Assembly: GCF_040782645.1 (NCBI RefSeq)
Contig: NZ_CP160403.1
Location: 992,001 to 1,056,000 of the forward strand
DNA from: Streptomyces sp. HUAS ZL42
GTDB taxonomy: Bacteria > Actinomycetota > Actinomycetes > Streptomycetales > Streptomycetaceae
Direction of reading: 5' to 3'
DNA length: 64,000 nt
Shown: positions 1 through 38,094 of the stretch, piece after piece
Layout of the letters: each line of letters starts with the position of its first letter
How positions within the stretch are numbered: position 1 is the first letter of the stretch
Made by a program: the position numbers and the translations under genes
Notes under the pieces: generated by a model
Seen by the model: only the letters and a program-made list of their open reading frames with translations
Databases searched by the model: none
What the model was told of the DNA's origin: nothing

Positions 1-621
1 ACGGCCGTGCATGGAGGAACGGTCGCGGGAGGGATGGACGACGATCGGCTCGTCCGCGAGGGCTGCGAGAGGGATCTCGCGGCGGCCCGCCAGCGGATGC
101 CCGGTGGGCAGGACGGCCACCAGGCGTTCGGACCGGAGGGCGGTGACCTCGACGGCGGCGTCCACCGGAGTGCCGCTCCGCAACAGGGCGAGGTCGTAGG
201 TGCCCTGGAGCAGGCCTTCGACCAGCTCGGGGTTCAGCAGCTCGCCGCGCAGCTCCAGGGACACGCCCGGCAGTTGCGCCCGTACCGTACGAGCGATCTG
301 CGGCAGGACGTCGTAGGTGGCGGTTCCGACGAACCCGACGGACACGCGTCCGGCCCGGCCGGTGGCGAGCAGTGCCATCTGGTCCTCCGCCCGCTCCACT
401 TCGGCCAGGATCGACCGCGCGTGGGGGACCAGATGACGGCCGGCCTCGGTGAGCTCCACGCGGCGTGTGGACCGGGTGAAGAGCGGCGTCCCGAGCTGTC
501 GCTCCAGCTGTTTGAGCTGCTGGGAGAGGGCCGACTGGGCCACGTGCAGACGCTGGGCGGCGCGGCCGAAGTGGCGTTCCTCGACGAGAGCGAGGAAGTA
601 GCGGACATGCCGGAGTTCCAT
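1..621 (-). CDS. LysR-family transcriptional regulator (3' end cut by window edge)
   Basis: The protein starts MELRHVRYFLALVEE, with the winged helix-turn-helix in residues 1-60 (AAQRLHVAQSALSQQLKQLE) followed by the start of the periplasmic-binding-like effector domain. I chose the ATG at 621 because it gives the canonical LysR N-terminus. Only about 207 of the usual 300 residues are present, and the frame stays open to base 1. It is divergent from the thiolase/CoA-transferase operon, the usual arrangement for a LysR activator of an aromatic catabolic operon, so it probably controls that operon. The effector is not visible, but a beta-ketoadipate pathway intermediate is a reasonable guess. 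Confidence 0.93.
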   Translation of the reverse strand, partial: MELRHVRYFLALVEERHFGRAAQRLHVAQSALSQQLKQLERQLGTPLFTRSTRRVELTEAGRHLVPHARSILAEVERAEDQMALLATGRAGRVSVGFVGTATYDVLPQIARTVRAQLPGVSLELRGELLNPELVEGLLQGTYDLALLRSGTPVDAAVEVTALRSERLVAVLPTGHPLAGRREIPLAALADEPIVVHPSRDRSSMHGR

Positions 622-643
622 GACCACATCTTATCTGTGTCAG

Positions 644-653
644 TGATTAATCA
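644..653. promoter_or_regulatory. TGATTAATCA palindrome in the lysR/thiolase divergent promoter
   Basis: The intergenic stretch 622-703 is strikingly A+T-rich for this genome. It holds the perfect 10-bp palindrome TGATTAATCA. LysR proteins bind dyads with a T-N11-A core in divergent promoters, so this is a likely operator core. The assignment is inferred from position and symmetry. Confidence 0.45.
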
Positions 654-703
654 AGCAGAACTGAATATTGGACGAGAACAATCCCGGAACCTACGTTGGG
701 ACC

Positions 704-1906
704 ATGGTTGCAAGCTTCGTTTACACCGCAGTGAGAACGCCTTTCGGGCGGTTCGGTGGAGCGCTCGCCGAGGTCCGGCCCGACGACCTCGCCGCCGTCG
801 CCCTCTCAGGAGCCCTGGCCAAGGCGCCGTCGCTGGACCCCGCGCTGATCGAAGACGTGGTCTGGGGCAACGCCAACGGCGCGGGCGAGGACAACCGGAA
901 CGTCGGTCGCATGGCGGTCCTTCTGGCGGGGCTGCCGACGTCGGTGCCGGCCACGACCGTCAACCGGCTGTGCGGCTCCTCGCTCGACGCGGCGATCATC
1001 GGCTCGCGCGCCGTCGAGAGCGGTGACGCCGACATCGTCCTCACCGGCGGGGTGGAGTCGATGACGCGTGCGCCGTGGGTCCTGCCCAAGCCGTCACGCG
1101 CCTTCCCCGCCGGCAACGTGACCGCCGTGTCGACCACCCTGGGATGGCGGCTGGTCAACGAACGCATGCCGAAGGAATGGACCGTCTCCCTGGGCGAGGC
1201 GAACGAGCAGCTGGCCGAGCGGTTCACCATCTCCCGGGAGAGACAGGACGAGTTCGCCGCCCGCTCGCACCAGCTCGCGGACGACGCCTGGAACTCCGGT
1301 TTCTACGACGACCTGGTGGTTCCCGTCGTACAGGACGGCGAGGCACTGCTCGCCCGCGACGAGGGCATCCGGCCCGGCTCCACGCCGCAGAAGCTGGCCG
1401 GCCTCAAGCCGGCGTTCCGCCCCGACGGAGTCATCACCGCCGGGAACGCCTCACCACTGAACGACGGTGCCTCTGCCGTGCTGATCGGCTCGGAGCAGGC
1501 GGCGTCCCGCATCGGCCTCGCACCGCTGGCTCGCATAGCGGGCCGCGGTGCATCGGCACTGGAACCGCAGATGTTCGGATTCGCGCCGGTCGAGGCGGCC
1601 GAGCGGGCGCTGAAGCGGGCCGGGATCTCCTGGTCGGAGGTGTCGGCGGTCGAACTCAACGAGGCTTTCGCCGTTCAGTCGTTGGCCTGCGTGGATGCCT
1701 GGAAGATCGATCCGGCCATCGTGAACGCCAAGGGCGGTGCGATCGCGATCGGCCATCCGCTCGGCGCCTCCGGCGGCCGCATCCTGAGCACCCTCGCCGC
1801 CCGGCTGCGCGAGTCGGGGCAGCGGTGGGGCGTCGCCGCGATCTGTATCGGTGTCGGACAGGCCCTGGCGGTCGTCCTGGAGAACGTTGCGGAGCAGGCC
1901 CGATGA
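704..1906 (+). CDS. pcaF: beta-ketoadipyl-CoA thiolase (acetyl-CoA acyltransferase)
   Basis: Thiolase of 400 residues, the normal family length. It should cleave 3-oxoadipyl-CoA with CoA to succinyl-CoA and acetyl-CoA. The catalytic triad is visible: Cys90 in NRLCGSSLDA, His351 in GHPLGASGGR and Cys381 in CIGVGQ. The N-terminus (YTAVRTPFGRFGGAL) and the AGEDNRNVGRMA segment resemble PcaF more than PhaA/AtoB, and the CoA-transferase pair next door supports this. I chose the ATG at 704 rather than the longer open frame from 668 because the family starts there. The stop overlaps the next start (ATGA), indicating translational coupling. No other pca genes lie in the window, so a general acetoacetyl-CoA role is not excluded. 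Confidence 0.85.
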   Translation: MVASFVYTAVRTPFGRFGGALAEVRPDDLAAVALSGALAKAPSLDPALIEDVVWGNANGAGEDNRNVGRMAVLLAGLPTSVPATTVNRLCGSSLDAAIIGSRAVESGDADIVLTGGVESMTRAPWVLPKPSRAFPAGNVTAVSTTLGWRLVNERMPKEWTVSLGEANEQLAERFTISRERQDEFAARSHQLADDAWNSGFYDDLVVPVVQDGEALLARDEGIRPGSTPQKLAGLKPAFRPDGVITAGNASPLNDGASAVLIGSEQAASRIGLAPLARIAGRGASALEPQMFGFAPVEAAERALKRAGISWSEVSAVELNEAFAVQSLACVDAWKIDPAIVNAKGGAIAIGHPLGASGGRILSTLAARLRESGQRWGVAAICIGVGQALAVVLENVAEQAR

Positions 1907-2574
1907 CTGTTCAGGTGTGCGCGGATGCGGACGAGGCCGTGGCGGGGATCAAGGACGGCTCAACGGTGCTGGTCGGAGGGTTCGGCATGGCCGGCATGCC
2001 CGTCGAGTTGATCGACGCGCTCATCCGGCAGGGTGCGACCGATCTGACCGTGGTGTCGAACAACGCCGGCAACGGCGACACGGGGCTGGCCGCGCTGCTG
2101 GCCAAGGGACGGGTGCGCAGGATCGTGTGCTCCTTCCCCCGCCAGTCCGACTCGTGGGTCTTCGACCGGCTCTACCGCGAGGGTCGGATCGAGCTCGAGG
2201 TCGTGCCACAGGGCACCCTCGCCGAACGGATGCGCGCGGCCGGTGCCGGCATCGGTGCGTTCTTCTCGCCCACGGGCGTCGGCACCCCCCTGGCGGAGGG
2301 GAAGGAGACCCGGGAGATAAACGGCCGCACCTACGTCCTGGAGTACCCGATCAAGGGTGACGTGGCGCTGATCGGCGCCCACAGAGCCGACCGGATGGGC
2401 AACCTCGTCTACCGCAAGACCGCCCGCAACTTCGGACCGGTCATGGCCACCGCCGCGACGACGGTCGTGGCACAGGTCCGCGAGATCGTCGAGATCGGAG
2501 AGATCGACCCGGAGGCCGTCGTGACGCCGAGCATCTACGTCGACCGTGTCGTTCAGGCGGGAGCGGCAGCATGA
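1903..2574 (+). CDS. pcaI: 3-oxoacid (beta-ketoadipate) CoA-transferase, subunit A
   Basis: Alpha subunit, 223 residues, of a family I CoA-transferase that moves CoA from succinyl-CoA to a 3-oxoacid, here probably 3-oxoadipate. The N-terminal GGFGMAGMPVELIDAL and the NNAGNGDTGLAALL segment are typical of subunit A. The start overlaps the thiolase stop and the stop overlaps the subunit B start, both as ATGA, so the three genes form one tightly coupled operon. SIMILAR scoA-type enzymes use acetoacetate, and sequence alone cannot separate the substrates; the PcaF-like partner favours 3-oxoadipate. Confidence 0.85.
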   Translation: MTVQVCADADEAVAGIKDGSTVLVGGFGMAGMPVELIDALIRQGATDLTVVSNNAGNGDTGLAALLAKGRVRRIVCSFPRQSDSWVFDRLYREGRIELEVVPQGTLAERMRAAGAGIGAFFSPTGVGTPLAEGKETREINGRTYVLEYPIKGDVALIGAHRADRMGNLVYRKTARNFGPVMATAATTVVAQVREIVEIGEIDPEAVVTPSIYVDRVVQAGAAA

Positions 2575-3248
2575 ACTCGATTACCGCACTGGTGGAGAAC
2601 CTCGGCCGGGGGCCGCTGGGCAAGGACGAGATGGCCGCCATGGTGGCGCGCGACATCCCGCACGGCTCCTACGTCAACCTGGGCATCGGCCAGCCGACGC
2701 TGGTCGCCGATCACCTGGCGGCGGGATCCGGGGTGGTGCTGCACACCGAGAACGGCATGCTCAACATGGGCCCCGCAGCCAAGCCCGGTCAAGTGGACCC
2801 CGATCTCACCAACGCGGGGAAGATCGCGGTCACGGAGCTGCCGGGAGCGGCCTACTTCCATCACGCCGACTCCTTCGCGATGATGCGCGGCGGCCACCTC
2901 GACATCTGCGTGCTCGGCGCCTTCCAGGTCTCGGCCGTCGGTGACCTGGCGAACTGGCACACCGGCGCGCCCGACGCGATCCCTGCTGTCGGCGGCGCCA
3001 TGGACCTCGCGATCGGCGCCAAGAAGGTCTTCGTCATGATGACGCTCTTCGCGAAGGACGGCTCGCCCAAACTGGTGCCGGAATGCAGTTACCCGCTGAC
3101 CGGGCTGGGGTGCGTCGACCGCGTCTACACCGACCTCGCGACGTTCCGTGTCGGCCCCGAAGGCGCCACGGTGCTCGAAACCTTCGGGATCACCTACGAC
3201 GAGCTCGTGGCCCGTCTCGACGTACCTCTGGCACCGGCGATCGCATAG
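2571..3248 (+). CDS. pcaJ: 3-oxoacid (beta-ketoadipate) CoA-transferase, subunit B
   Basis: Beta subunit, 225 residues, of the same heteromeric CoA-transferase. It carries the catalytic glutamate in HTENGMLNMGP, which forms the covalent glutamyl-CoA intermediate in this family, and the NLGIGQPTLVADHL segment of the beta fold. It is the last gene of the pcaFIJ-like operon and is followed by a strong stem-loop at 3286-3326. Confidence 0.87.
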   Translation: MNSITALVENLGRGPLGKDEMAAMVARDIPHGSYVNLGIGQPTLVADHLAAGSGVVLHTENGMLNMGPAAKPGQVDPDLTNAGKIAVTELPGAAYFHHADSFAMMRGGHLDICVLGAFQVSAVGDLANWHTGAPDAIPAVGGAMDLAIGAKKVFVMMTLFAKDGSPKLVPECSYPLTGLGCVDRVYTDLATFRVGPEGATVLETFGITYDELVARLDVPLAPAIA

Positions 3249-3285
3249 AGGAGTCTGCCGCCCGATTTTCCGCATGACGCTCGGC

Positions 3286-3326
3286 GATCAGTGACTGGGG
3301 GAGGCCCCCTCCCCCGGTCACTGATC
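3286..3326. terminator. Bidirectional stem-loop after the CoA-transferase operon
   Basis: Arms 3286-3304 and 3308-3326 pair over 19 positions with a single T/G wobble-type mismatch around a 3-base loop. It lies 37 bases after the subunit B stop, and its distal arm contains the stop codon of the esterase remnant that runs toward it, so it can serve both directions. There is no T-tract, which is common for terminators in this group. Confidence 0.75.
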
Positions 3327-3572
3327 CAGGAGCCGGCGCAGCCAGCGCAGCCGGGCGGCGCGGGCATCCACGGACAGCGCGGCCCGCGGCACCAGACCGT
3401 CGAACCCGTGGTAGCCGCCCGGCCATTCGGTCGTCATGAGCGCGAGCAGGTCGTTGAGCTGCTCCCTCGCCGCTGGGATGCCGTCCGGGACAGCCGTGGT
3501 CGGCGCCTGGCCGCCGACTTCCCCAAGCGCGGCGGCCAGCTCCGGATCGAAGGGCGGAGGGGGTGTGGTCAT
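3318..3572 (-). pseudogene. Internally deleted alpha/beta-hydrolase (lipase/esterase) remnant
   Basis: An 84-residue open frame whose start (MTTPPPPFDPELAAALGEV) matches the beginning of HSL-type alpha/beta hydrolases and whose end (WPGGYHGFDGLVPRAALS, then an Arg-rich helix) matches their C-terminus with the catalytic His in HGF. The central roughly 200 residues, including the HGGG and GDSAGG motifs, are missing, yet the frame is unbroken. It is therefore an in-frame internal deletion that cannot be an active esterase. A tiny functional protein is possible but unlikely. Confidence 0.65.
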
Positions 3573-3691
3573 CGGGGCCTCGTCGGGGATCGGTCGTCAC
3601 ACCTGCGTGCGGCCCGCTGTGGAAGTGCGGCGGCATCGCGGAACGGTGGGACCGGGGCAACGTGGTCGTGGAGCGCCGGGCGAAGACGTCC

Positions 3692-4294
3692 TCATACGTC
3701 GACGAGCATTCCGGGGTCCCCCGTCCGGGCACGGCGTACCCCTTCGCAGGGCGGAACAGCCCGTCGGGCGGATTCCCGGACGTGGATCCGAAGCGCGTCC
3801 TGGACGGGGTCGCCCGGGATCTCCTTCCCGTCCAGCGTGTCGACGATCCGGCGGGCCAGTCCCCGCGCGATGACGTCGGTGTCGCGGACGACCGTGGTCA
3901 GCGGTGGCCGGGCCAGGGCCCCGCCGGGGATGTCGTCGACGCCGATCACGGCGAGGTCGTGCGGCGCGCGCAGCCCGAGGGACGGCAAGGCGCCCAGCAC
4001 GGCCAGGGCGATGTCGTCGTTGAACGCGCAGATGCCCGTCACCGGCGGGTCGGCGGCGAGCCAGGCCTTCACCGCCTCCGCGGCGCCGTTCGGCTCGAGG
4101 GGGACGGTGCGGACCTCCGGTTCCGGGAGGCCGCGTTCGGCGCAGACCTTGCGCACCCCGTCCAGGCGCGGCCGGGCCAGGACACCGAGCCTCGTCAGGT
4201 CCGGGTAGGCGTAGCCGAGCCGGCGGTGTGATTCGGCGAGGTGGCGGGCCTGCATCGCGCCGATCGGCTCCTCGGACACCTGGTACTGATCCAC
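3692..4294 (-). pseudogene. LacI-family regulator remnant without its DNA-binding domain
   Basis: About 200 residues align with the C-terminal effector half of LacI/GalR regulators: an ARHLAESHRRLGYAYPD segment, GICAFNDDIALAVLGAL, then DLAVIGVDDIPGGALARPPLTTV. The helix-turn-helix and first sugar-binding subdomain are absent. The 5' end overlaps a TetR fragment on the other strand, so the break is a rearrangement, not a late start. It lies directly beyond the rhamnosidase gene, whose promoter still carries a LacI-type operator, so this may be that gene's former repressor. Confidence 0.75.
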
Positions 4295-4456
4295 ATGGCC
4301 AACGCCGGCGTCGTCAACGCCACCGGCGATGCCGCCCCCGACGCCTGGCGACGCGTCGTCGCCCTGCTGATCCAGTCCTTGGAGACCCCGGCCCGCGGCC
4401 CCCTGCCCGCCTCACCCGAGCACGACGCCCTCCACAGGGCCATGCTCCGCGGGCAT
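4280..4456 (+). pseudogene. TetR-family regulator C-terminal fragment
   Basis: The + strand frame reads HMANAGVVNATGDAAPDAW, then RRVVALLIQSLE and ASPEHDALHRAMLRG. This matches the C-terminal ligand domain of a group of actinomycete TetR regulators. No N-terminal DNA-binding part is present; the fragment begins inside the LacI remnant on the opposite strand. It is a recombination scar with no likely function. Confidence 0.6.
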
Positions 4457-4511
4457 CACGTCGCCGGAGCGCGGACCCGAGCAGCTGACCTCCTTGTGGC
4501 CGCACCGGTCC

Positions 4512-4545
4512 ATGCCGTCCAGGCGCAAGGTGCCCTGGACGGCAT
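4512..4545. terminator. Stem-loop after the rhamnosidase gene
   Basis: Perfect 12-bp arms (ATGCCGTCCAGG at 4512-4523 and its complement at 4534-4545) flank a 10-base loop, 19 bases beyond the rhamnosidase stop. Position and symmetry fit a terminator for the minus-strand gene. Confidence 0.7.
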
Positions 4546-4563
4546 CGACGTAGCCGCGCCCCG

Positions 4564-7500
4564 TCAGCCGACGCGGATCTCAGCGAGCTGGAGACGGTAC
4601 TTGGACGTCTCGTCGGAAGCGGGTGCCCCAAGCCTCGTGGCGCGCAGGCGCAGGTAGCGGCCGGTGGCAGAGGTGAGCGTGTACGTCTGGGCGGCTCCAC
4701 TGGGGTTGCTCTGTCCGGTGACGGTACGGGCGGTGGTGTACGTGCTCGCGCCCTCCGCACGGGTCTGCAGGGCGAAGTCGACGGGGAAGCCGGCCGTGCC
4801 GCCCCCGGCCGCCGCAGTGTCGGTGCGCGGGTGAAGGACGACGGAGCCGATGGCCCGGTCGGCGCCCAGGTCGACCTCGATCCACACGGGCGTGCCGCTG
4901 ACGTCGGCGGAGGAAAAGTCGATGCTGGTGAAGCCCTTGGCGCCGGTCACACTGGTGAGGGTGCCGTCCAGGACCCGGGTCTTGCCCCAGTCACCGTTCT
5001 CCAGTGTGTAGTTGCTGGTGACGGTGGTCGCGGCGGTGGGGACGGTGAGTTCGGCGAGCTGGAGGCGGTACTTGGTCGTCTCGTCCGAAGCGGGAGTCCC
5101 GAGCCTGGTGGCCTGCACACGGACGTAGCGGGCGGTCGTCGTCCTGAAACCGTACGTCTGCACCAGTCCGCTGGGATTCGGCTGGCCGCTGACGGTACGT
5201 ACGGTGGTGTAGGTGCTGGATCCGTCGGGGCGGGTCTGGATCGTGAAGTCGACGGGGAAGCCGGCCGTGCCACCGCCCGCTGCCGGGGTGTCGGTGCGCG
5301 GGAAAAGGCGCACGGCGTCGAGATCGGTGTCCACGCCCAGGTCGATCTCCACCCACACGGGGTTCGCGCTGACATCGGCGGAGGTGAACTCGTTGCTGGT
5401 GTAGCCCCTGGCGCCGGTCACGCTGGTCAGCGTGCCGTCGGTGAGCCGGCTCCGGCCCCAGTTGCTGTTCTCCAGGCTGTTGTTGCTGGAAACGGGCTTG
5501 CCCAGGGCGAGGTTGTCGAGACGGCCCGTGCCGGTGGCCGTGAACGTCCAGGTGCCCGGCTGGACCGTGAAGTAGACGTACGAGGAGTCCCTGCTCACGT
5601 ACGTCAGGCCGCTGACGCTGCCGGTGGCGGAGCCGTTCGTGTAGACGGTGGTGCCGTTGGCGTTGATGACCGGCTGGGCGCCGCCGTAGGTGGGCACACC
5701 CACACGAGCGGTCGTCCCGCCCGGCGAGGTGAGCGTCAGAGTCACGTTGCCGCCGTCACGTGTGATGCCGAGGCGGATGTCGCCCTTGACCGTGGGCACG
5801 ACGGTGTTGATCTTCGTGAGCGTGCCTGTCTGAGGTACGACGTCGTACGTCGTCCAACCCGGCTGCGTGGGACGGACACCGGCGGCGTAGGCGGACAGCG
5901 CGTACAGCGGGCCGCCGTTCCATGCATGGTTGTCGGTGCCGTCGGCCTTGGCCCACAGCTCCCACAGCGTGTAGCAGGCGGGGTCGGCGACCTGGGCGGC
6001 GTAGCGGTTGCGCATCCGCTCCTCGGCGACGGTGGCCGCGCCCATCAGATACAGCGCCTCGATGACGTAGAACTCCATGTAGGGGCTGGCGTTGAGGTGA
6101 GTGCGCAGCACCTCGGTCACCGCGCGGTAGCGGGAGGCGGGAGCCAGGCCCGCGACGACGGCGAGGGCGCCTGCGCGGTCGTCGGTGTCCCTGGTGTAGC
6201 CGGGCGAGCGGTACTCGTTCCTGGAGGCGTTCCACAGCACGCGGTCGAAGTTGGCCTTGATGCTGTCGCGCCTGGCCTGCCATCCGGCCGTGTCGCCGCT
6301 GTTGCCGCTGAGGTCGGCCAGCTTGGCGGCGGTGTCCAGGGCCAGGTAGTACCAGCAGTTGTCCAGAACGCGGGCGTCGATGTTGCTGCCCCAGTCCTCC
6401 CAGTCCCAGTCCCCGGCGCGGTGGTTGACCAGGCCGTCGCTGTCCAGGCTCCACAGGTTCAGGTACTTCTTCACCGCCGGGTAGGCGCCGGTGACGGCGC
6501 TCGCGTTGCCGGTGTAGAGGTAGTACGTCCAGAACGACCACACCGAGGCGAGCATCTGCACGGGCAGTTCGGCGGTCCAGATCGTCGCCGGAACCGGTGA
6601 GTACAGCGCTCCGCTGTCCTTCTGCCAGGCGGCCAGCTGGGCGATGGCCTTCTTGCCGAGTGCGTGGGAGCGGGTGTCGAAGGTGTAGAAGCCCTCCTTG
6701 AGCTGGTTGACGACATCACCCCACCACTGGGCCCGCTCACGGGTGGGGCAGTCCATGTAGTTGTCGCGCATGTTGACGTACATCGTGCGCGCAGCCTTGG
6801 TCCACAGGGTGTCCAGGAAAGCGTCACTGCTGCTGAACGAGCCCGCGAAGTCGGTGTCATAGCCCGACTCCCGGTACTTCAGGTCGAGGATGGTGACACC
6901 CGCCGGGATCGTGTACCGCACAGCCGTACCGCTCATCCACGCCAGGGGCTCGAACTCCTGGACACCGCCGGTGCAGACGTAGGTGGCGCGCATGTTGTAC
7001 TGAGTTCCCGGCTCGATCCCGGTCAGACCCGCGCCGTCGTCGTAGTGATCGGTGTGGATGCCGATCACCGCACCGGCCGGCGCGTCCACCTTCAGGAACG
7101 GGGTCACCTGGATGTTGGACGGCAAGGTGGCCGAGATCGCGGTGGAGCCCTGACCCGTGGACGGCAGTGAGGCGGCGTTGGTGTAGGACTTCAGACCGGA
7201 GTAGCGGAACAGCGGGATCGGCCGCTCGGCGAGGGCGTTCCAGGGCGCGGCGCCTGCGGCACCGTAATCGGTCGGCGCCGTCCAGCCGCCGTCGTTGAAG
7301 CCCGGGGAGCGCCAGCCCGACACGACGGCGGCGGCTCGGGCGTCGTAGTAGATGTTCGACTCGGGCAGCCGGAAGTTCACCTGCGTACCGCTGGTGTTGT
7401 TCGAGTAGCCCGGGTGGACGGTGTGCTTCCAACTGGTGTCGCTGATCAGCCGGGTGGTCGACGAGCCGACCTGGATGTCGGACTGGAACAGGAGCCCGCC

Positions 7501-7926
7501 CCTGCCGCTGCTGCTGTGCGAGAAACCCTGCTTGCCGAAGTACCACACCAGCAGGGCCACCGTGTTGCTGCCGCTGGTCAGGTAGGGGGCGAGGTCGATC
7601 TCGTCGTAGTAGGTGTCCGTGCGGTTGGGGCCGCGCTTGAGCTGACCGTCGAAGACCACCAGCGTGCCGTTCACCCAGAGCCAGTACTTGGAGTCCGCCG
7701 CGATCTGCGTCACGGCCTTGGACGGCGCGGAGCCCAGGGTGAACGATCTGCGGAAAGCCACCCACTGGTTGGTCGTGCTCGACGGCGCCCAGATCCACTT
7801 CGCACTCCAGGAGACGGCGGCCGAGGCCGTGGGGGCGAGCCCTGGCACGAGCATCGAACCAAGGGTGGGCGCGAGGGCGACGGCGATGGCGGAACGCAGG
7901 GCGGAGCGGCGTGAGATGAGCTGCAT
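4564..7926 (-). CDS. Secreted GH78 alpha-L-rhamnosidase with two C-terminal discoidin domains
   Basis: A 1120-residue exported glycosidase expected to release alpha-L-rhamnose from plant or microbial rhamnosides. The N-terminus has a twin-arginine-type signal (SRRSALRSAIAVAL, cleavage near ASA-AVSW at residue 36). It is followed by carbohydrate-binding beta domains and an (alpha/alpha)6 barrel with the GH78 signature CPTRERAQWWGDV near residue 395. Residues about 802-962 and 965-1120 are two closely similar F5/8 type C (discoidin) modules, probably sugar-binding. I took the ATG at 7926 because the signal peptide starts there and AAGG lies upstream; an in-frame extension of 28 residues was rejected. 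A LacI-type palindrome sits 32 bases upstream. Confidence 0.92.
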   Translation of the reverse strand: MQLISRRSALRSAIAVALAPTLGSMLVPGLAPTASAAVSWSAKWIWAPSSTTNQWVAFRRSFTLGSAPSKAVTQIAADSKYWLWVNGTLVVFDGQLKRGPNRTDTYYDEIDLAPYLTSGSNTVALLVWYFGKQGFSHSSSGRGGLLFQSDIQVGSSTTRLISDTSWKHTVHPGYSNNTSGTQVNFRLPESNIYYDARAAAVVSGWRSPGFNDGGWTAPTDYGAAGAAPWNALAERPIPLFRYSGLKSYTNAASLPSTGQGSTAISATLPSNIQVTPFLKVDAPAGAVIGIHTDHYDDGAGLTGIEPGTQYNMRATYVCTGGVQEFEPLAWMSGTAVRYTIPAGVTILDLKYRESGYDTDFAGSFSSSDAFLDTLWTKAARTMYVNMRDNYMDCPTRERAQWWGDVVNQLKEGFYTFDTRSHALGKKAIAQLAAWQKDSGALYSPVPATIWTAELPVQMLASVWSFWTYYLYTGNASAVTGAYPAVKKYLNLWSLDSDGLVNHRAGDWDWEDWGSNIDARVLDNCWYYLALDTAAKLADLSGNSGDTAGWQARRDSIKANFDRVLWNASRNEYRSPGYTRDTDDRAGALAVVAGLAPASRYRAVTEVLRTHLNASPYMEFYVIEALYLMGAATVAEERMRNRYAAQVADPACYTLWELWAKADGTDNHAWNGGPLYALSAYAAGVRPTQPGWTTYDVVPQTGTLTKINTVVPTVKGDIRLGITRDGGNVTLTLTSPGGTTARVGVPTYGGAQPVINANGTTVYTNGSATGSVSGLTYVSRDSSYVYFTVQPGTWTFTATGTGRLDNLALGKPVSSNNSLENSNWGRSRLTDGTLTSVTGARGYTSNEFTSADVSANPVWVEIDLGVDTDLDAVRLFPRTDTPAAGGGTAGFPVDFTIQTRPDGSSTYTTVRTVSGQPNPSGLVQTYGFRTTTARYVRVQATRLGTPASDETTKYRLQLAELTVPTAATTVTSNYTLENGDWGKTRVLDGTLTSVTGAKGFTSIDFSSADVSGTPVWIEVDLGADRAIGSVVLHPRTDTAAAGGGTAGFPVDFALQTRAEGASTYTTARTVTGQSNPSGAAQTYTLTSATGRYLRLRATRLGAPASDETSKYRLQLAEIRVG

Positions 7927-7957
7927 CGCGGGACCTTCTGAGGGAGGGGGGGTGGGG

Positions 7958-7971
7958 TTGAATCGATTCAA
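7958..7971. promoter_or_regulatory. LacI-type operator in the rhamnosidase promoter
   Basis: TTGAATCGATTCAA is a perfect 14-bp palindrome with the central CG of LacI/GalR operators, just upstream of the rhamnosidase start. A second smaller palindrome, TCGATCGA, follows at 7973-7980. The site implies sugar-responsive repression. The only LacI gene nearby is the truncated one at 3692-4294. Confidence 0.75.
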
Positions 7972-8090
7972 TTCGATCGATGCAGCGGAGATACTTGACC
8001 CTCCACACAATCGCTGTCAATGGCCTGGACACAGGAAACCCACAAGTTTCGTGCCATCGGGTGGGCCCTGAGGCCTCACAACGGTACGGC

Positions 8091-8156
8091 TCAGTTCAAG
8101 CCGAACAGCGACCGGGCGTTGCCGTGCGCTATCCGTCGAGGCTGGTCCGTTGATCT
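8091..8156 (-). pseudogene. C-terminal relic of an amidohydrolase-2 family protein
   Basis: The minus strand reads QPRRIAHGNARSLFGLN followed by a stop. The HGNAR-LFGL ending is the usual C-terminus of amidohydrolase-2 (TIM-barrel metal hydrolase) proteins. Only about 20 residues are recognisable; upstream of them the frame does not continue as a protein. It looks like the stump of a gene lost when DNA to the right was inserted or rearranged. Confidence 0.4.
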
Positions 8157-30577: not shown

Positions 30578-31060
30578 ATGGCGAGGCGGCCCCAGGAACT
30601 GCTCCGTCTGCTGACGCGGGCCGAGCGTCTCTCCGTGCGCCGAGTCCAGTCCGTACTGGACGAGTTCGACTGTTCCGTGGAGGCTTGGCGGGTCCTCGAC
30701 CTGCTCTCGGACGGGCAGGGGCACAACATGACGGCCCTCGCCGACCACGCCTTCCTGCCGGCTCCCAGCCTCACCAAGCTGATCGACCAACTCGTCGACC
30801 AGAACCTGGTTTACCGCCGCATCGACCCTGCCGACCGCCGCCGCGTCCTCGCCCATCTCACGCCACGGGGCATGGAGCGATGGCAGCAGTTGGTGCGCGA
30901 AGTGCGGGCCGACTGGGCCGAGTTGGAACATGTCCTCGCGGACGAGGACGGGGAGCGACTGCACGTCCTGCTGAACCGGCTGGCCGATGCGGTGAAAGGC
31001 ACGGAGGCAGACCGGGTCACAACAGGTCGTGGGGGGCGTGCAGTTGAGCGAGGACGTTGA
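30578..31060 (+). CDS. MarR-family transcriptional regulator
   Basis: A 160-residue winged-helix protein: LLTRAERLSVRRVQSVLDEF, then GQGHNMTALADHAFLPAPSL-TKLIDQLVDQNLVYRR (recognition helix) and DPADRRRVLAHLTPRG (wing). The ATG at 30578 has GGAGGA upstream. It is divergent from the urt operon and convergent with the AmiC-like gene, whose 3' end it overlaps by 44 bases. It may regulate urt genes. Confidence 0.9.
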   Translation: MARRPQELLRLLTRAERLSVRRVQSVLDEFDCSVEAWRVLDLLSDGQGHNMTALADHAFLPAPSLTKLIDQLVDQNLVYRRIDPADRRRVLAHLTPRGMERWQQLVREVRADWAELEHVLADEDGERLHVLLNRLADAVKGTEADRVTTGRGGRAVERGR

Positions 31061-32132
31061 AGTCCAGCCCGTCCGCCTCCGCCAGGTAGATGCGCTGACG
31101 CACATGCCGGTCGTGGAGACGGAGCAGCCCGCGCGGTCCTTCGTACGAGACCGTCTCGGCGGCGGCTGCGATCGCGGAGACATCGAACGTGCGGGCCTGT
31201 TCGACGAGCGCCGCCAGGAGCAGCACACCTTCGTAGCAGGACTCTCCGAGGCTGCCCGGGGCAGGCGCCTCGATCCCGAACCGGGCGGCGTACTGAGCGT
31301 GGAAGTCGAGGGTGTCCTGGTTGGCCAGTGACGCGAAGAACCCGGCCGTACTGAACAGGTCGCCGGTCGCCTCGGGGCCGCTGGCCATCAGCATGTTCTC
31401 GTCCATCAGCGTACTCAGCCGCAGGCACCGCCGGTCGAGCCCGGAGGAGGCGAAGGCCCGGTTGAAGCGGACCGCGTCGCTGCCGACCAGCAGCATCAGC
31501 ACGCCGTCCGCGTCCGCGTGCTCGATCCGCCGCAGCACAGCCTCGAAGTCCTCGGTATCCAGCGGGAGATACGACTCGCCGCAGACCCGGCCCCGGCTTG
31601 CGCGCGCGTAGCGGCGGGCGGCCCGGGCCGTGCGCCGGGGCCAGACGTAGTTGTTGCCGACGACGAACCAGCGGCGCACGCCGCGCGTCTCGGCGAGCAG
31701 CCGCATGGCCGGCAGCAGCTGCCACTCGGGAGTCTCGCTGGTCATGAAGACGCCCTCGGTGCGCTCGCCACCCTCGTACAGGGCTGTGTAGACGTACGGC
31801 ACCCGGTGGGCGACCCGCGGCGCGAGGGCCTCGCGCACGGACGAGATGTGCCATCCGGTCACGCCGTGCACCGCTCCGGTCGCGACCAGCGCCTCCACGT
31901 CCCGCGCCACGGTCTGCGGGTCCCGGCCGCCGTCCACCTCGAGCAGCCGCAGCTCCCTGCCGAGGACGCCACCCGCCTTGTTGACCTCCTCGGCGGCCAG
32001 CCGTGCGCACGCCTCACAGGTGGGCCCGAAGATCCCGGCAGGCCCCTGCATCGGGTACACGAGCGCGACGTTCAGAACCGAATCGTCGGCCGTTACCCAC
32101 TCGGGGGCGTGGAGGCGGAGCGGCCGGTGCAT
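31017..32132 (-). CDS. Cytoplasmic UrtA/AmiC-like ligand-binding protein
   Basis: A 371-residue periplasmic-binding-like protein (NVALVYPMQGPAGIFGPTCE, GVTGWHISSVREALAP, FVVGNNYVWPRRTARAARRY) related to UrtA and AmiC, but with no signal peptide or lipobox. In Pseudomonas AmiC senses amides in the cytoplasm and controls an antiterminator. A sensing role beside the urt operon is therefore likely, possibly with the MarR protein. I started it at the ATG at 32132, though the frame is open to 32222. There is no ANTAR-type partner in the window. Confidence 0.78.
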   Translation of the reverse strand: MHRPLRLHAPEWVTADDSVLNVALVYPMQGPAGIFGPTCEACARLAAEEVNKAGGVLGRELRLLEVDGGRDPQTVARDVEALVATGAVHGVTGWHISSVREALAPRVAHRVPYVYTALYEGGERTEGVFMTSETPEWQLLPAMRLLAETRGVRRWFVVGNNYVWPRRTARAARRYARASRGRVCGESYLPLDTEDFEAVLRRIEHADADGVLMLLVGSDAVRFNRAFASSGLDRRCLRLSTLMDENMLMASGPEATGDLFSTAGFFASLANQDTLDFHAQYAARFGIEAPAPGSLGESCYEGVLLLAALVEQARTFDVSAIAAAAETVSYEGPRGLLRLHDRHVRQRIYLAEADGLDFNVLAQLHAPHDLL

Positions 32133-32289
32133 GGCCCCATGATTCCGGCACCGCCCTCGGTTCCCAAGCGACGGCATGGATCGAGACCGATTCGTAGACC
32201 GGGGGGCCGGCACCGCGAGCATCCCCGACGACCATGAAACCGCTCTCGCGCTCGTCGCTCAGGACGCCGTCGAACCTCGAAGCCGCTAT

Positions 32290-33490: not shown

Positions 33491-33669
33491 CGAAGTCCGC
33501 TCACCACCGAGATCAGACGACCGGTCGACACTCACCGGTTGACACTCCCTCAAATACTGTTAGTCAAAAGGGCGTTGACGGTCATGTTCCGGAAGTGAAA
33601 GGGCGCACACAACTCCTCCATGCGGTGTAGCTTCTACCCGTCAGTAGGGGCTTGAGCAAGGGTGGATGT

Positions 33670-34737
33670 GTGGTTGCCTCTCCGCAAACCGAAAAGTTCG
33701 CAGCCTGTCTTCGGATGCTGAAGGACCGCAGTGGCCGGGGCTACGACCGCCTCGGCAAGGAGGCGGGCGTCAGTGGTTCCAGTCTGCATCGGTACTGCTC
33801 CGGCCTCAGCGTCCCGACGGACTACCGGGTGGTGCACGCCTTCGCCAAGGTGTGCGGAGCCAGTGCGGAGGAGCTCCGCGAACTCCACCGGCTGTGGGCG
33901 CTGGCGGACACCGACCGGGACGTACCGGCCGTGACCGCCGAGGAGAACCCGGAACCAGAACCGGAGGAGCCTGCCGTGCCCGCGCAGGTGAGCCCCGGAC
34001 CGGACGACGTCACCCCGCCGGAGATCACCCCCGACGAGGCCGAGAAGCCGCGACGCTCCCGCGTGCCCCAGAAGCTGTCCTCCCGTATCGCGATACTGAC
34101 CGCCGTCGCCGCGGTGGCGCTGGTGGCCGGCTTCGTGTGGCTGCCCTTGGGGCGCCCCGCCGGTGCCTCACCGGCGGACGACGACAGACTGCTGTACTCC
34201 CCCGCGTGCCAGTCGGTGAGCATGGGCCAGCACGACGAGTGCGTGCGGGAGGTCCAGACCCTGTTGGCGCGGGCGAAGGGCAGGCTCGCCGTCGACGGGG
34301 ACTTCGGGCCGGAGACCCTGCGCAGACTCACCGCGTTCCAGGTGCTGGCGGGCGTGCCGGCGAGAAGCGCGGTCGACGACGCCACCAAGAAGGCGCTCTA
34401 CGCGCAGAAGGTGAGCATGGCGACCTGGTCGCCGGCCGAGGTGGAGAAGCGGATCCGTCAGGTGTTCGTCGAGGATCCCGACACCGCCGTGGCCATCGCC
34501 CGCTGTGCCTCGTTCCTCGACCCGCTGTGGGTGCTGCCCAACACCAACGGCAGCCGCAACTGGGGCGTGTTCCAGATCTCCGACGCCCGCCTGCGGGAGC
34601 TCGACGGCACGCCACTGCGGGCGTTCGACCCGGAGTGGAACATCAAGGCGGCCCACCGTCTGTGGAGCGCCCAACGTGACTTCCACGACTGGCCCTCCTG
34701 CGAGGCGGCGCTGAAGAAGGACTCACCGAAGAGCTGA
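33670..34737 (+). CDS. Membrane-anchored HTH protein with external peptidoglycan-binding and lysozyme-like domains
   Basis: A 355-residue bitopic protein. Residues about 5-70 form an XRE-like helix-turn-helix (YDRLGKEAGVSGSSLHRYCS, then HAFAKVCGASAEELRELHRL). An acidic Pro/Glu linker follows, then one membrane helix near 139-158 (IAILTAVAAVALVAGFVW), a PG_binding_1 domain near 175-243 (DGDFGPETLRRLTAFQV), and a lysozyme-like domain near 255-350 (NTNGSRNWGVFQISDA). In related domains the catalytic Glu sits in an ARCES motif; here Ala280 replaces it (ARCAS), so the domain probably binds but does not cut. This suggests a wall sensor signalling to DNA. The GTG at 33670 was preferred to TTG at 33652. 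Confidence 0.85.
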   Translation: MVASPQTEKFAACLRMLKDRSGRGYDRLGKEAGVSGSSLHRYCSGLSVPTDYRVVHAFAKVCGASAEELRELHRLWALADTDRDVPAVTAEENPEPEPEEPAVPAQVSPGPDDVTPPEITPDEAEKPRRSRVPQKLSSRIAILTAVAAVALVAGFVWLPLGRPAGASPADDDRLLYSPACQSVSMGQHDECVREVQTLLARAKGRLAVDGDFGPETLRRLTAFQVLAGVPARSAVDDATKKALYAQKVSMATWSPAEVEKRIRQVFVEDPDTAVAIARCASFLDPLWVLPNTNGSRNWGVFQISDARLRELDGTPLRAFDPEWNIKAAHRLWSAQRDFHDWPSCEAALKKDSPKS

Positions 34738-34744
34738 AGCCCGC

Positions 34745-34778
34745 AGCCCCGGGTACCGCCGCAGCGGTACCCGGGGCT
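34745..34778. terminator. Bidirectional terminator between two wall genes
   Basis: A perfect 15-bp stem (AGCCCCGGGTACCGC at 34745-34759, complement at 34764-34778) closes a 4-base CGCA loop between the convergent HTH-lysozyme-like gene and the M15 peptidase gene. Confidence 0.88.
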
Positions 34779-34812
34779 GGGACTTCCGGCTCCGGATCAC
34801 CCCGGGACGGCC

Positions 34813-35562
34813 TCAGATGGTGCCGCTCTCCCACCACCAGTCACGACCGAGGTCGGCCCTGCTGTCCACGTGCTGGTGGTCGACGGTGTACCTCTCCAGC
34901 CCGGAGAACCCGCAGGTCTCCGCCTTCTGGTAGACGGTCCTGTTGGCCACGCCGGGCACGTCGAGGTCGGCCGCGGTGCCGTACAGGTGCATGCTGTCGC
35001 TGGCCCCGCCGATCTCGGCGTTGTGCGCGATGCTGCGGAAGCCGGAGTTGACCGTGATCGGCTTGTCGCCCAGCTTCTTGCGCAGCGCCTCCAGCTTGTA
35101 CATGCAGCGGCGGACGTTCTCCTTCACCTGCGCCGCGCTCAGCTTGCCGCCGTTGAAGGTGCCGCTCGCCTGGTCCACGAACTCGCTCCAGTTGAAGTGG
35201 GCCGTGGAGCCGTCCGACTGCTCCAGCGCGTTGAGCTTCGCCTGGGTGTTGGGTCCGACGCTGGCGTCGGCGGCGAGACCGTACGCCGTCTGGAACCGGC
35301 GAACGGCCGCCGCCGTACCGGGGCCGAAGTCCCCGTCGATGCTGACCCGGGTGTGGCTTGCGCTGTCCGCCGCCCAGCCCGCGACCCGGATCTGCAGCTC
35401 GGTCACGTCGGCGCCGCTGTCGCCCTGTTCCAGAGTGCGCGACCACGAATAGGCCTGTGCGACGCCCGAGAACAGCAGCTGTCCGAACGCGACGCCCGCG
35501 CCGGCGGCCAGCGTGCCACGCAGCATGGTGCGGCGGTTGATGGGGCGGAAGGAGGAAGTCAT
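34813..35562 (-). CDS. Secreted zinc D-Ala-D-Ala carboxypeptidase (M15A) with peptidoglycan-binding domain
   Basis: A 249-residue exported peptidase with a twin-arginine signal (NRRTMLRGTLAAGAGVAF, cleavage near AQA-YSW), a PG_binding_1 domain at about 40-110 (SIDGDFGPGTAAAVRRFQTA) and an M15A catalytic domain. The zinc ligands are seen as His and Asp in SMHLYGTAADLDV and His in DHQHVDS; SGFRS is also conserved. It resembles the Streptomyces albus G enzyme and should trim the terminal D-Ala of peptidoglycan stems. It is the last gene of a four-gene minus-strand cluster. Confidence 0.92.
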   Translation of the reverse strand: MTSSFRPINRRTMLRGTLAAGAGVAFGQLLFSGVAQAYSWSRTLEQGDSGADVTELQIRVAGWAADSASHTRVSIDGDFGPGTAAAVRRFQTAYGLAADASVGPNTQAKLNALEQSDGSTAHFNWSEFVDQASGTFNGGKLSAAQVKENVRRCMYKLEALRKKLGDKPITVNSGFRSIAHNAEIGGASDSMHLYGTAADLDVPGVANRTVYQKAETCGFSGLERYTVDHQHVDSRADLGRDWWWESGTI

Positions 35563-35598
35563 CGTCGTCCTTTCGGGGAACGGTGAGGTGGGAAGAGG

Positions 35599-36015
35599 TC
35601 AGTAGGCGATCTGGAACTTGACGTTCTGAGCGTCCTGGTCATAAGGGCCCACGCGCAGAACGAAGTGGGTGCCGTCCTTGACGTCGGTGGCGACGGTCGC
35701 CCACTCGGTGCCGTGGAGGGAGTAGGTGTCGTCGTGGTTGCACTTGGTGGTGTGGTCGACGAACACCACACAGGCGTAGAGGAACACCCCCGGCTCGTCC
35801 GTGATGAGCCGCATGTTGATGTCGTTGCACCGCGAGGACGTGGTGTAGGTGCCGTACGACACGGGGGACGTGGAGTAGTGGTACGTCAGGGTCTTGGCTC
35901 CGCCGTAGCAGCTGACGGCGGCGGCCGAGGACTGTGCCGAGGCGGGCGCGACGCCCGCGCCCAGCAGTGCGGCCGCGGTGAACAGAGCCGAGGCGAACGT
36001 CCTGCTCCGGATCAT
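35599..36015 (-). CDS. Small secreted four-cysteine protein A
   Basis: A 138-residue protein with a Sec signal (RTFASALFTAAALLGAGVAP, cleavage near ASA-QSS). The mature part has four cysteines (SCYGGAKTL, SSRCNDINMRL, LYACVVF, TKCNHDD), suggesting two disulfides, and ends DGTHFVLRVGP. It is paralogous to the next upstream gene (shared CYGG, RCxDINMR, ATDV-DG-x-F). I do not recognise the family. It lies 36 bases upstream of the carboxypeptidase and probably shares its transcript, implying a wall- or lysis-related job such as inhibitor, toxin or wall-binding protein. Confidence 0.8.
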   Translation of the reverse strand: MIRSRTFASALFTAAALLGAGVAPASAQSSAAAVSCYGGAKTLTYHYSTSPVSYGTYTTSSRCNDINMRLITDEPGVFLYACVVFVDHTTKCNHDDTYSLHGTEWATVATDVKDGTHFVLRVGPYDQDAQNVKFQIAY

Positions 36016-36040
36016 GGTGGTCTCCGTTCGGTGAGGGGGG

Positions 36041-36430
36041 TCAGAAGGCGATCTGCATGACGGCGTCGTCGCCCTCGAGGGGGATGCCGGCGGACACCGT
36101 GAACTTGCTGCCGTCCAGGACGTCGGTGGCGATGGTCGTCCAGCTCCGGCCGACCTTGGTCCAGCGGTTGCAGGTGCCGTACTTCGCGAACTTCACGCAG
36201 GCGTCCACGTAGTCCGCGGTTCCGCTGATCACGCGCATGTTGATGTCGTGGCAGCGGCTCGTGGTCCAGTACGGGCCGAAGTCGACTGCGTCCCCGTAGC
36301 GCACCGTGACCGCCCCGCCGTAACAGGTCGTCGCGGCCGTGGCGGCCGAGGCGGAGGTGGGCGCCGGAGCGGTGAAGCCCAGGGTGACGAGCAGTGCGAC
36401 GAGGGACGCGCGTGCGAACCGGATGGTCAT
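36041..36430 (-). CDS. Small secreted four-cysteine protein B (paralogue)
   Basis: A 129-residue protein with a Sec signal (RFARASLVALLVTLGFTAPA, cleavage near ASA-ATA). Four cysteines in the same order as its neighbour (TCYGGAVTV, TSRCHDINMRV, VDACVKF, GTCNRWT), then SWTTIATDVLDGSKFTV. The start is the ATG at 36430. It lies 25 bases from protein A and 26 from the lysozyme, so the pair arose by tandem duplication and is co-transcribed with the lytic enzymes. The function is unknown. Confidence 0.8.
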   Translation of the reverse strand: MTIRFARASLVALLVTLGFTAPAPTSASAATAATTCYGGAVTVRYGDAVDFGPYWTTSRCHDINMRVISGTADYVDACVKFAKYGTCNRWTKVGRSWTTIATDVLDGSKFTVSAGIPLEGDDAVMQIAF

Positions 36431-36456
36431 GGGGGTCCTCCTTGGTCCTGCCGGGA

Positions 36457-37803
36457 TCAGCGGTTGGCCAGACGGTCCAGATCGGCCTGGGAGCCGTTGA
36501 ACACGTCCGCGGTCGCCGGTGCCTGGATGCCCGGGAAAAGCGCGGCGTCGGTGTACTGCCACATCGCCCAGGTCGTCGAGCCGTTCGGCAGCGGTGGCCG
36601 GCTGATCGACTGGCGGTAGTCCGCGAGTTGCAGCGGATACCGGGCGAACGCGGTGGTCGAACCCAGGCAGTCGTCAAGGAAGGACTTCTGGGTGTAGATG
36701 ATCGGAGTGCGGCCGAAGGCCGCCTCCACCCGGTCGAGCCAGGCCTTGGCGTCGGCCACCGTGCCGTAGGTGGGACAGCGTCCGCTGCCGTCGTCCATGC
36801 GTTCCAGGTCGAAGACGGGCGGCAGGTCGCCCGCACGCTGTCCGGTGTAGCCGGTCGCTCGTGCGGCGGTGATGAACCGGTCGGCCTGCGCGGTACCCGT
36901 GTCGGGCGACGTGCCCGTGTAGAAGTGGTAGGGCGCGACGGCCAGCCCCGCCGCCCTGGCCGCGGGGAGGTCGGTGGCAAGGTATTCGTCGGTGACGTTC
37001 AGGCCCCGGGTGGCCTTGACCGTCGCGAACTCGACACCCGAGGCCCGTACGGCCTTCCAGTCGATCGGTGCGCCGCCGGGGTGCTGGTACTTGGCTGTGT
37101 CCAGGCCGTCGATCGGGTATCCGGCGGGGCGCGGTGGTGTGCAGTACGTGTTGCGGCCGGCCCAGTCCACCAGTTTCGCCCAGGTGTTGGGTCCCACGAC
37201 CCCGTCGGCGCTGAGGTTGGCGCAGTGCTGGAGCTCGATGACCCGGCCCTCGGTCCCGCCCCCGAAGTTCCCGTCGATGGCCAGGGGCGGATAGTGGAAC
37301 GGCTCCATGGCCAGGTTCAGACGGCACTGCAGTTCCTTGACCTCAGTGCCCGTCACACCCCGACGCAGCGTCGGGCGTGCGTCGGTGTGGCCGCACACGG
37401 TCGTCTGCGCCGTGCTCGACGTGCCCTGGTTCGCGCAGGAGTGCGGCCCCGCGGCCCAGGTGTTCAGCGCCGCCCAGGTCTGCGGGCCGAGCACACCGTC
37501 CACGTCCAGCCCGGCACACCGCTGGAACTCCTTGACACGCGTCTCCGTCGCCGGCCCGAACGAGCCGTCCGCCGCGATCGGCGTGTAACGGCTCGGCTTC
37601 GTCGCCAGATTGAGCTCGCACTGCGCCTCGACCGTCGAGTCCCCCGTCGATCCCCGCTGCAGCGTGGGCTGTGCGCTCGTATGCCCGCAGACCGCGACGG
37701 CGGTGGCTGCGGACTCCGCCGCCTGCACCACCATGGGCCCGTACAGGGGCAGGACCGCTGCCACGGCGAGGGTCAGACCCCGCAGAAGCGTCCTCTGTCC
37801 CAT
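36457..37803 (-). CDS. Secreted GH25 lysozyme with two peptidoglycan-binding domains
   Basis: A 448-residue exported muramidase. A Sec signal (LRGLTLAVAAVLPLYGPMVV, cleavage near VQA-AES) is followed by two PG_binding_1 domains at about 45-125 (DGSFGPATETRVKEFQRCA) and 130-215 (DGNFGGGTEGRVIELQHCA), and a GH25 domain from about 225 (DGLDTAKYQHPGG, with catalytic Asp/Glu in PPVFDLERMD). Many cysteines in the binding domains suggest disulfides. The ATG at 37803 has GGGGGA eight bases upstream. It is the first gene of the cluster with the two small secreted proteins and the carboxypeptidase. Confidence 0.92.
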   Translation of the reverse strand: MGQRTLLRGLTLAVAAVLPLYGPMVVQAAESAATAVAVCGHTSAQPTLQRGSTGDSTVEAQCELNLATKPSRYTPIAADGSFGPATETRVKEFQRCAGLDVDGVLGPQTWAALNTWAAGPHSCANQGTSSTAQTTVCGHTDARPTLRRGVTGTEVKELQCRLNLAMEPFHYPPLAIDGNFGGGTEGRVIELQHCANLSADGVVGPNTWAKLVDWAGRNTYCTPPRPAGYPIDGLDTAKYQHPGGAPIDWKAVRASGVEFATVKATRGLNVTDEYLATDLPAARAAGLAVAPYHFYTGTSPDTGTAQADRFITAARATGYTGQRAGDLPPVFDLERMDDGSGRCPTYGTVADAKAWLDRVEAAFGRTPIIYTQKSFLDDCLGSTTAFARYPLQLADYRQSISRPPLPNGSTTWAMWQYTDAALFPGIQAPATADVFNGSQADLDRLANR

Positions 37804-38094
37804 CTGGTGTTCCCCCTCATGTGAGTGGCCGGGAGCCCCCGGCACGGATCACGCTGGCAGCGGGTTTCCCCGAAGTGGATCCTCCTGCCCCGGATTGGGA
37901 CGCCGGGACAGTCACGCGCCTGTGACCTGCGGGGACGGATCACCGCTGGGATGAACATGGGATACGGACGACGGCCCTCGACGATGGGCGGAGGCCGTCG
38001 TGGTCGAGGCAGGCCGCCCGCCGGGTCAGCCTCGGGTGCGCCTCAGGTCGCAAGTCGGTGGGCAAGAGATGTGTGACACCGCAGGATTGGAGCT

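Follow-up and report, generated by a model that had tools for sequence, protein, structure and literature searches.

Within a 64,000-nucleotide stretch of Streptomyces sp. HUAS ZL42 (contig NZ_CP160403.1, positions 992,001 to 1,056,000; hereafter the window, whose own numbering is used throughout) lies a locus, at positions 33538-37966, that we interpret on balance as a portable lytic cassette carrying a membrane-tethered regulator of its own, which reads peptidoglycan through a dead lysozyme. The locus contains five predicted genes. Four of these are on the minus strand in the order GH25–SP2–SP1–M15, with intergenic gaps of 26, 25 and 36 bases, respectively, and the fifth is a convergent plus-strand gene that codes for a helix-turn-helix (HTH) protein. 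An earlier reading of this DNA, made without database searches and called here the sequence-only reading, had listed five genes with these domains, tandem signal-peptide paralogues, four conserved cysteines and minus-strand gaps of 25-37 bases, all of which we recovered, with the widest gap at 36 bases. The five-gene set is not a chance assembly, because the same set recurs in other genomes; it is conserved as a unit among changing flanks, and the lysozyme-like domain of its HTH protein has lost its catalytic residues. The features of the locus are as follows:

33538..33669, plus strand: conserved region upstream of the HTH gene (alignment of 19 upstream regions; edge read by eye)
33670..34737, plus strand: membrane-tethered HTH_31 protein of 355 residues (Pfam, hydropathy scan, homologue alignment)
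34741..34781, no strand: stem-loop between the convergent genes (16 consecutive pairs, folding score)
34813..35562, minus strand: M15 zinc peptidase with an N-terminal PG_binding_1 domain and a Tat-like start (Pfam, relationship to 1lbu)
35599..36015, minus strand: SP1, a predicted small secreted protein (four invariant cysteines, beta-sandwich model)
36041..36430 (start codon 36428-36430), minus strand: SP2, a paralogue of SP1 (sequence comparison)
36457..37803, minus strand: GH25 muramidase with two PG_binding_1 stretches (Pfam, DxE active site kept)
37804..37966, minus strand: conserved region upstream of the operon (alignment of 22 upstream regions; edge read by eye)

Conservation of the cassette as a unit

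A scan with two SP1/SP2 peptide patterns, covering one genome each from 84,980 species, identified 23 loci, 22 in Streptomyces and one in Couchioplanes. GH25 is adjacent in 21 of the 22 Streptomyces loci (the exception is L056) and M15 is likewise adjacent in 21, with L055 ending at a contig edge and the L043 copy being broken. The convergent HTH gene is present in 18 of the 22 at a distance of 57-124 bases from M15. It is missing beside L038, L054 and L056, and L055 is cut, with M15 and HTH genes side by side on a different contig of the same genome. A flanking gene is common to only 8 of the 231 pairs formed by 22 loci (L035-L055 plus the window, with L056 and L057 excluded; counted were genes that encode 90 or more residues, lie within ~4 kb and share at least 50% identity, a few flanks being short). 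DNA conservation drops off ~165 bases upstream of GH25 and ~130 bases upstream of the HTH gene, as judged by eye from the alignments. The conserved block, the changing flanks and the fading DNA conservation together point to a portable block of ~4.4 kb, and the co-occurrence across Streptomyces anticipated by the sequence-only reading is borne out by this neighbourhood search.

The cassette is sparsely distributed. Among 150 Streptomyces genomes, 7 have SP matches at E<1e-40 (25 have any SP match), 7 have an HTH ortholog at E<1e-190, 9 have GH25 at E<1e-60 and 14 have M15 at E<1e-60, 10 of these last with at least 81% identity. All genome searches scored best candidates only, so absences in them are no proof (per genome, 27 for SP and 13 for HTH in Streptomyces, 9 in the family of Couchioplanes and 5 in the class-wide set of 394 genomes described below). 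The HTH ortholog adjoins at least one enzyme gene in 7 of 7 genomes: it accompanies the full cassette in G000, G108, G011 (where SP2 is in frame with GH25), G107 and G095; it lies beside GH25 alone in G084, with no SP or M15 there; and it shares a contig with M15 in G024, where GH25-SP2-SP1 is found at the end of another contig. G091 and G013 carry GH25 without a linked HTH gene, and three M15 copies (81-83%) are located elsewhere in G087, G045 and G052.

The HTH protein and its lysozyme-like domain

The HTH protein consists of an HTH region (residues 10-72) followed by a variable linker, a hydrophobic segment (~135-153), a PG_binding_1 domain (192-243) and a lysozyme-like domain (~251-352). 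HTH_31, which lies in a region of strong conservation, scores 52.5 bits against a Pfam cut-off of 27. The lysozyme-like domain matches SLT_3 at 27.2 bits (cut-off 27), and PG_binding_1 scores 22.2 bits, just below its cut-off of 23, with additional backing from weak matches to PHROG endolysin and PDB profiles. A hydropathy scan finds a single hydrophobic segment in 52 of 52 full-length homologues. By this predicted architecture the protein is a putative one-component membrane-tethered transcription factor.

In the window's protein, A280 and N297 stand where a lysozyme would have its catalytic residues. Both the Glu and the Asp position are replaced in all 52 full-length homologues, none of which keeps either residue, as compared to retention of Glu in 24 of 24 readable enzymatic SLT_3 domains; the pseudo-lysozyme of the sequence-only reading is thus well supported. 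Despite lost catalysis, aligned orthologs show almost no variation in the cleft loop PNTNGSRNWGVFQ. A structure model of moderate confidence assigns the domain to the lysozyme fold. C-type lysozyme entries stand at the top of a second look, with 1iiz, 1gd6 and 2rsc as weak matches (E 0.12-0.34), and Foldseek's own weak list is headed by lytic transglycosylases. The domain appears closest to C-type lysozyme, with the sugar-cleft loop kept and both catalytic carboxylates lost.

No second full-length homologue was found in the window's genome, where two further matches are confined to the HTH and membrane portions. Across the 394 genomes searched from the class, HTH matches from outside the genus come from 3 genomes only and span at most residues 4-179, without the outer domains.

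A second gene order outside Streptomyces

The family of Couchioplanes (Micromonosporaceae, order Micromonosporales) yielded 12 HTH matches at E<=1e-40 from 200 genomes. Each of the four strongest (G535, G715, G586 and G545; E<1e-136) is surrounded by genes for PG_binding_1 proteins, recognisable peptidases among them. For example, the neighbours in Couchioplanes include a Peptidase_M74 gene (32.5 bits, cut-off 25), a weak Extensin-like_C match below cut-off and a gene with PG_binding_1 only that is M15-like by eye; neighbours in the other three genomes were assigned by blastp to the Couchioplanes genes and to the window's M15. An SP gene is present at three of these four loci, with none in any frame within the stretch read of G586. 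In G545 the HTH gene faces M15 (82% identical to the catalytic part of the window's protein), followed by SP, as in Streptomyces. A tree of 52 HTH proteins, built after duplicate loci of one gene and G026 (L124; its match covers the outer part only) were left out, needs two changes to explain the enzyme-linked label against a mean of 17.7 after shuffling (0 of 500 as low), although this label was assigned from neighbours, near-copies lower the change count and the tree warns of long branches. We also observed a protein of 131-135 amino acids that recurs beside the cassette in this family (L057:5217-5624, L169 and L171), the L057 copy having no Pfam match.

The lytic enzymes

The GH25 protein (129.6 bits in Pfam) has a catalytic part related to the solved muramidase 1jfx (E 1.6e-24), and its DxE active site is kept as FDLE in the window and in 21 of 21 loci. 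The M15 protein matches Peptidase_M15_3 at 78.3 bits and aligns over most of its length (residues 37-242) with the muramoyl-pentapeptide carboxypeptidase 1lbu (E 2.2e-46); its TAT_signal scores 21.5 bits (cut-off 22.7). The zinc motifs are present in the window; of the 21 loci that have M15, 20 show S.HLYG.AAD and all 21 show DH.HV. Because of these alignments and the kept motifs, both proteins look active as enzymes. The M15 copy of Streptomyces stelliscabiei (L043, 6432-7013) is short and split, and its cassette neighbours are full-length frames. In L056, L220 and L222, M15 is followed by a gene combining Amidase_2 and PG_binding_1, an alternative lytic pair. An apparent M15-SP fusion in L220 was rejected, as the short SP-like piece that precedes the M15 start looks like a decayed SP1.

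SP1 and SP2

SP1 and SP2 are 44% identical, have N-termini that resemble signal peptides by eye and contain four cysteines that are invariant across 42 aligned family members. Neither reaches the cut-off of any Pfam family. SP1 has no match in phage or plasmid collections, and carriage by such elements was set aside on that result. We regard weak matches to APH_9_Ib (6 of 42 members, best E 0.0023) and DUF7933 (2 of 42, best E 0.0025) as fortuitous. Of the 22 Streptomyces loci, 13 encode SP2 separately, 4 lack it (L038, L040, L044 and L046) and 5 have it fused to the C-terminus of GH25 (L037, L039, L041, L047 and L052). Because of these fusions we favour a wall-binding or accessory role, and SP1 and SP2 are probably binding modules for the cassette enzymes or for their substrate. 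The structure models, which are beta-sandwiches, fit a wall-binding module, one of the suggestions of the sequence-only reading, without proving it.

Members of the SP family also occur in other settings. For example, L142 (G104, 129-8138) has two such genes between two Ser/Thr-kinase-like genes with PG_binding_1-type tails (one assigned by Pfam, the other by blastp and sequence), a sensor-like neighbourhood. Further homologues are found in the family of Couchioplanes (L224-L233 and L235), where the neighbourhood looks recurrent by gene sizes, and L225 has an SP homologue together with Peripla_BP_6 and DUF2786 genes.

Non-coding elements and surroundings

An exact TTGA-N7-TCAA palindrome precedes the HTH gene in 11 of 19 loci. 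The 34738-34812 interval between the convergent genes folds at -51.9 kcal/mol (z -4.25; 0 of 200 shuffles as good). This stem-loop is perhaps a two-way terminator, in which case both transcripts may end there. No RNA element reached its gathering threshold within the window, and none of the five cassette proteins matched PADLOC anti-phage defence models at E<=0.01. A gene for a Peripla_BP_6 protein (31017-32222, minus strand, 290 bits) lies near the cassette.

Proposed mechanism and alternatives

We propose that the operon gives rise to a secreted GH25 muramidase that would cut glycan and an M15 zinc peptidase that would cut peptide, with SP1 and SP2 aiding the binding of enzymes or substrate. 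The regulator would have its HTH region inside the cell, one membrane span, and its PG_binding_1 and lysozyme-like domains outside. These outer domains may bind glycan strands or fragments, which would alter how the HTH portion clusters or folds and, through presumed binding at the operon, set the operon's transcription by either activation or repression. Products of lysis could then report back to the regulator, closing a loop. That the HTH protein senses peptidoglycan and controls the operon, as the sequence-only reading proposed, is plausible if unproven, and control is supported by the facing arrangement and by the linked clade. The rarity of the cassette, the predicted free secretion of its products and its variable flanks hint at a role against the walls of other bacteria or at a special growth stage and not in core wall growth.

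Several observations weigh against this reading. Cassettes without a linked HTH gene exist (L038, L054, G091 and L056); a distant HTH homologue is located elsewhere in the first three of these genomes, with none at E<=1e-40 in that of L056. Within the ortholog clade the HTH gene is linked to the operon in 18 of 22 loci, and the four nearest homologues from the family of Couchioplanes are linked to wall-enzyme genes too, but 25 other homologues have no such linkage, and the idea that HTH proteins of this family are always linked was rejected on these rows. The other 8 of the 12 matches from the family of Couchioplanes are unlinked. Similarly, the proximity of SP genes to muralytic genes noted earlier is true of the close family (GH25 and M15 at 21 of 22 loci each) but not of most distant relatives covered: blastp finds a PG-binding neighbour for 3 of 19 in Streptomyces regions and for 0 of 12 in regions from the family of Couchioplanes. 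Finally, a search for an operator shared by the HTH and operon upstream regions (words of 6-8, short palindromes) gave nothing convincing, the top common word being CCCGTC (11 of 22 operon and 19 of 19 HTH regions).

One alternative is that the dead lysozyme is a decoy or protein receptor, which binds SP1/SP2 or a lysozyme inhibitor or shields the cell's own glycan from the cassette muramidase. A precedent is RsiV, a membrane regulator reported to respond to contact with the lysozyme protein (PMC4183432), and the SP genes and the HTH gene are for the most part conserved together. We nevertheless think a decoy unlikely: a near-invariant cleft loop without catalysis suits retained sugar binding, a PG-binding domain adjoins the lysozyme-like domain, and G084 and G586 have the HTH gene with enzymes but, over the stretch read, lack SP. 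It is quite unlikely that the operon simply encodes co-secreted lytic enzymes with the convergent HTH gene as a passenger that has no regulatory link to them. L038, L054 and L056, whose flanks are uncut, do carry enzymes and SPs with no HTH neighbour, the stem-loop points to separate transcripts, and a shared operator was not found; against this, the convergent spacing persists in 18 loci with mostly different flanks, the HTH gene is near peptidase genes in the second gene order also, and in G084 it stands beside GH25 where SP and M15 are missing. Very doubtful, too, is a RodZ-like wall-growth factor that links cytoskeleton or synthesis machinery to peptidoglycan without control of its neighbours. 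The predicted topology equals that of RodZ, and 25 homologues in other contexts are expected for a general wall factor, but HTH_31 is well over its cut-off in a strongly conserved region, the ortholog clade is bound to enzyme genes in two orders despite changing flanks, and an ortholog in 7 of 150 Streptomyces genomes is too sparse for a core growth factor. That SP1 and SP2 are lactococcin 972-type bacteriocin-like toxins exported with the lytic enzymes is most improbable, since the one indication for the toxin idea, weak lactococcin_972 (NCBIfam) matches in 8 of 42 members (best E 0.0012; window SP2 16.5 bits, cut-off 32.1), disappears for SP2 freed of its signal peptide (0 of 10 at E<=1), and the SP2-GH25 fusions at 5 loci also count against it.

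Comparison with known systems

Few proteins are known that convert the state of outer peptidoglycan into gene expression. More tentatively than the cassette itself, we suggest a new class of one-component membrane regulator that may use a dead lysozyme and a PG-binding domain as a glycan-strand receptor, and may drive a mobile bacteriolytic cassette whose products make its signal, with SP1 and SP2 as a new family of free-standing wall-binding modules. If true, the dead lysozyme receptor would amount to a new sensor open to direct test, lytic enzymes in Streptomyces could be placed under an inducible switch, and a function would be hinted for a small secreted protein family that has no Pfam entry. 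No literature description of such a regulator or cassette was found in titles and abstract beginnings, which is weak evidence of novelty as most subscription papers were outside reach.

The cassette's M15 and GH25 are related to 1lbu and 1jfx, respectively, but their genes share a block with SP genes and have a regulator gene facing them. RodZ and the ToxR/CadC-type proteins have a DNA-binding-type domain inside, a single membrane span and an outer domain, a plan that the cassette regulator appears to share; we know of no such protein with a lysozyme-like outer domain. The sensor domain of BlaR1/MecR1 resembles the enzyme class that is induced, and the cassette regulator is similar in having an enzyme-like sensor domain, but BlaR1 signals through a protease to a separate repressor and has a drug as its ligand. 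RsgI senses plant polysaccharide with its outer domain and acts through a sigma factor and proteolysis, whereas the cassette regulator has its DNA-binding domain in the same polypeptide and peptidoglycan-type outer domains. The likeness to RsgI would be that polysaccharide outside the cell is sensed by a membrane protein, which in turn governs the genes of secreted enzymes degrading that polysaccharide, as is reported for RsgI anti-sigma factors of Clostridium thermocellum (PMC12203970, PMC4711584). RsiV of B. subtilis is reported to bind C-type lysozyme with no requirement for muramidase activity (PMC4183432). Both RsiV and the cassette regulator would be membrane regulators tied to lysozyme, in the cassette regulator apparently of the C type, but lysozyme is a ligand for RsiV and the cassette regulator carries a lysozyme-like domain itself. 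By analogy, the cassette regulator appears to resemble RsgI-type sensors and BlaR1 while belonging under neither.
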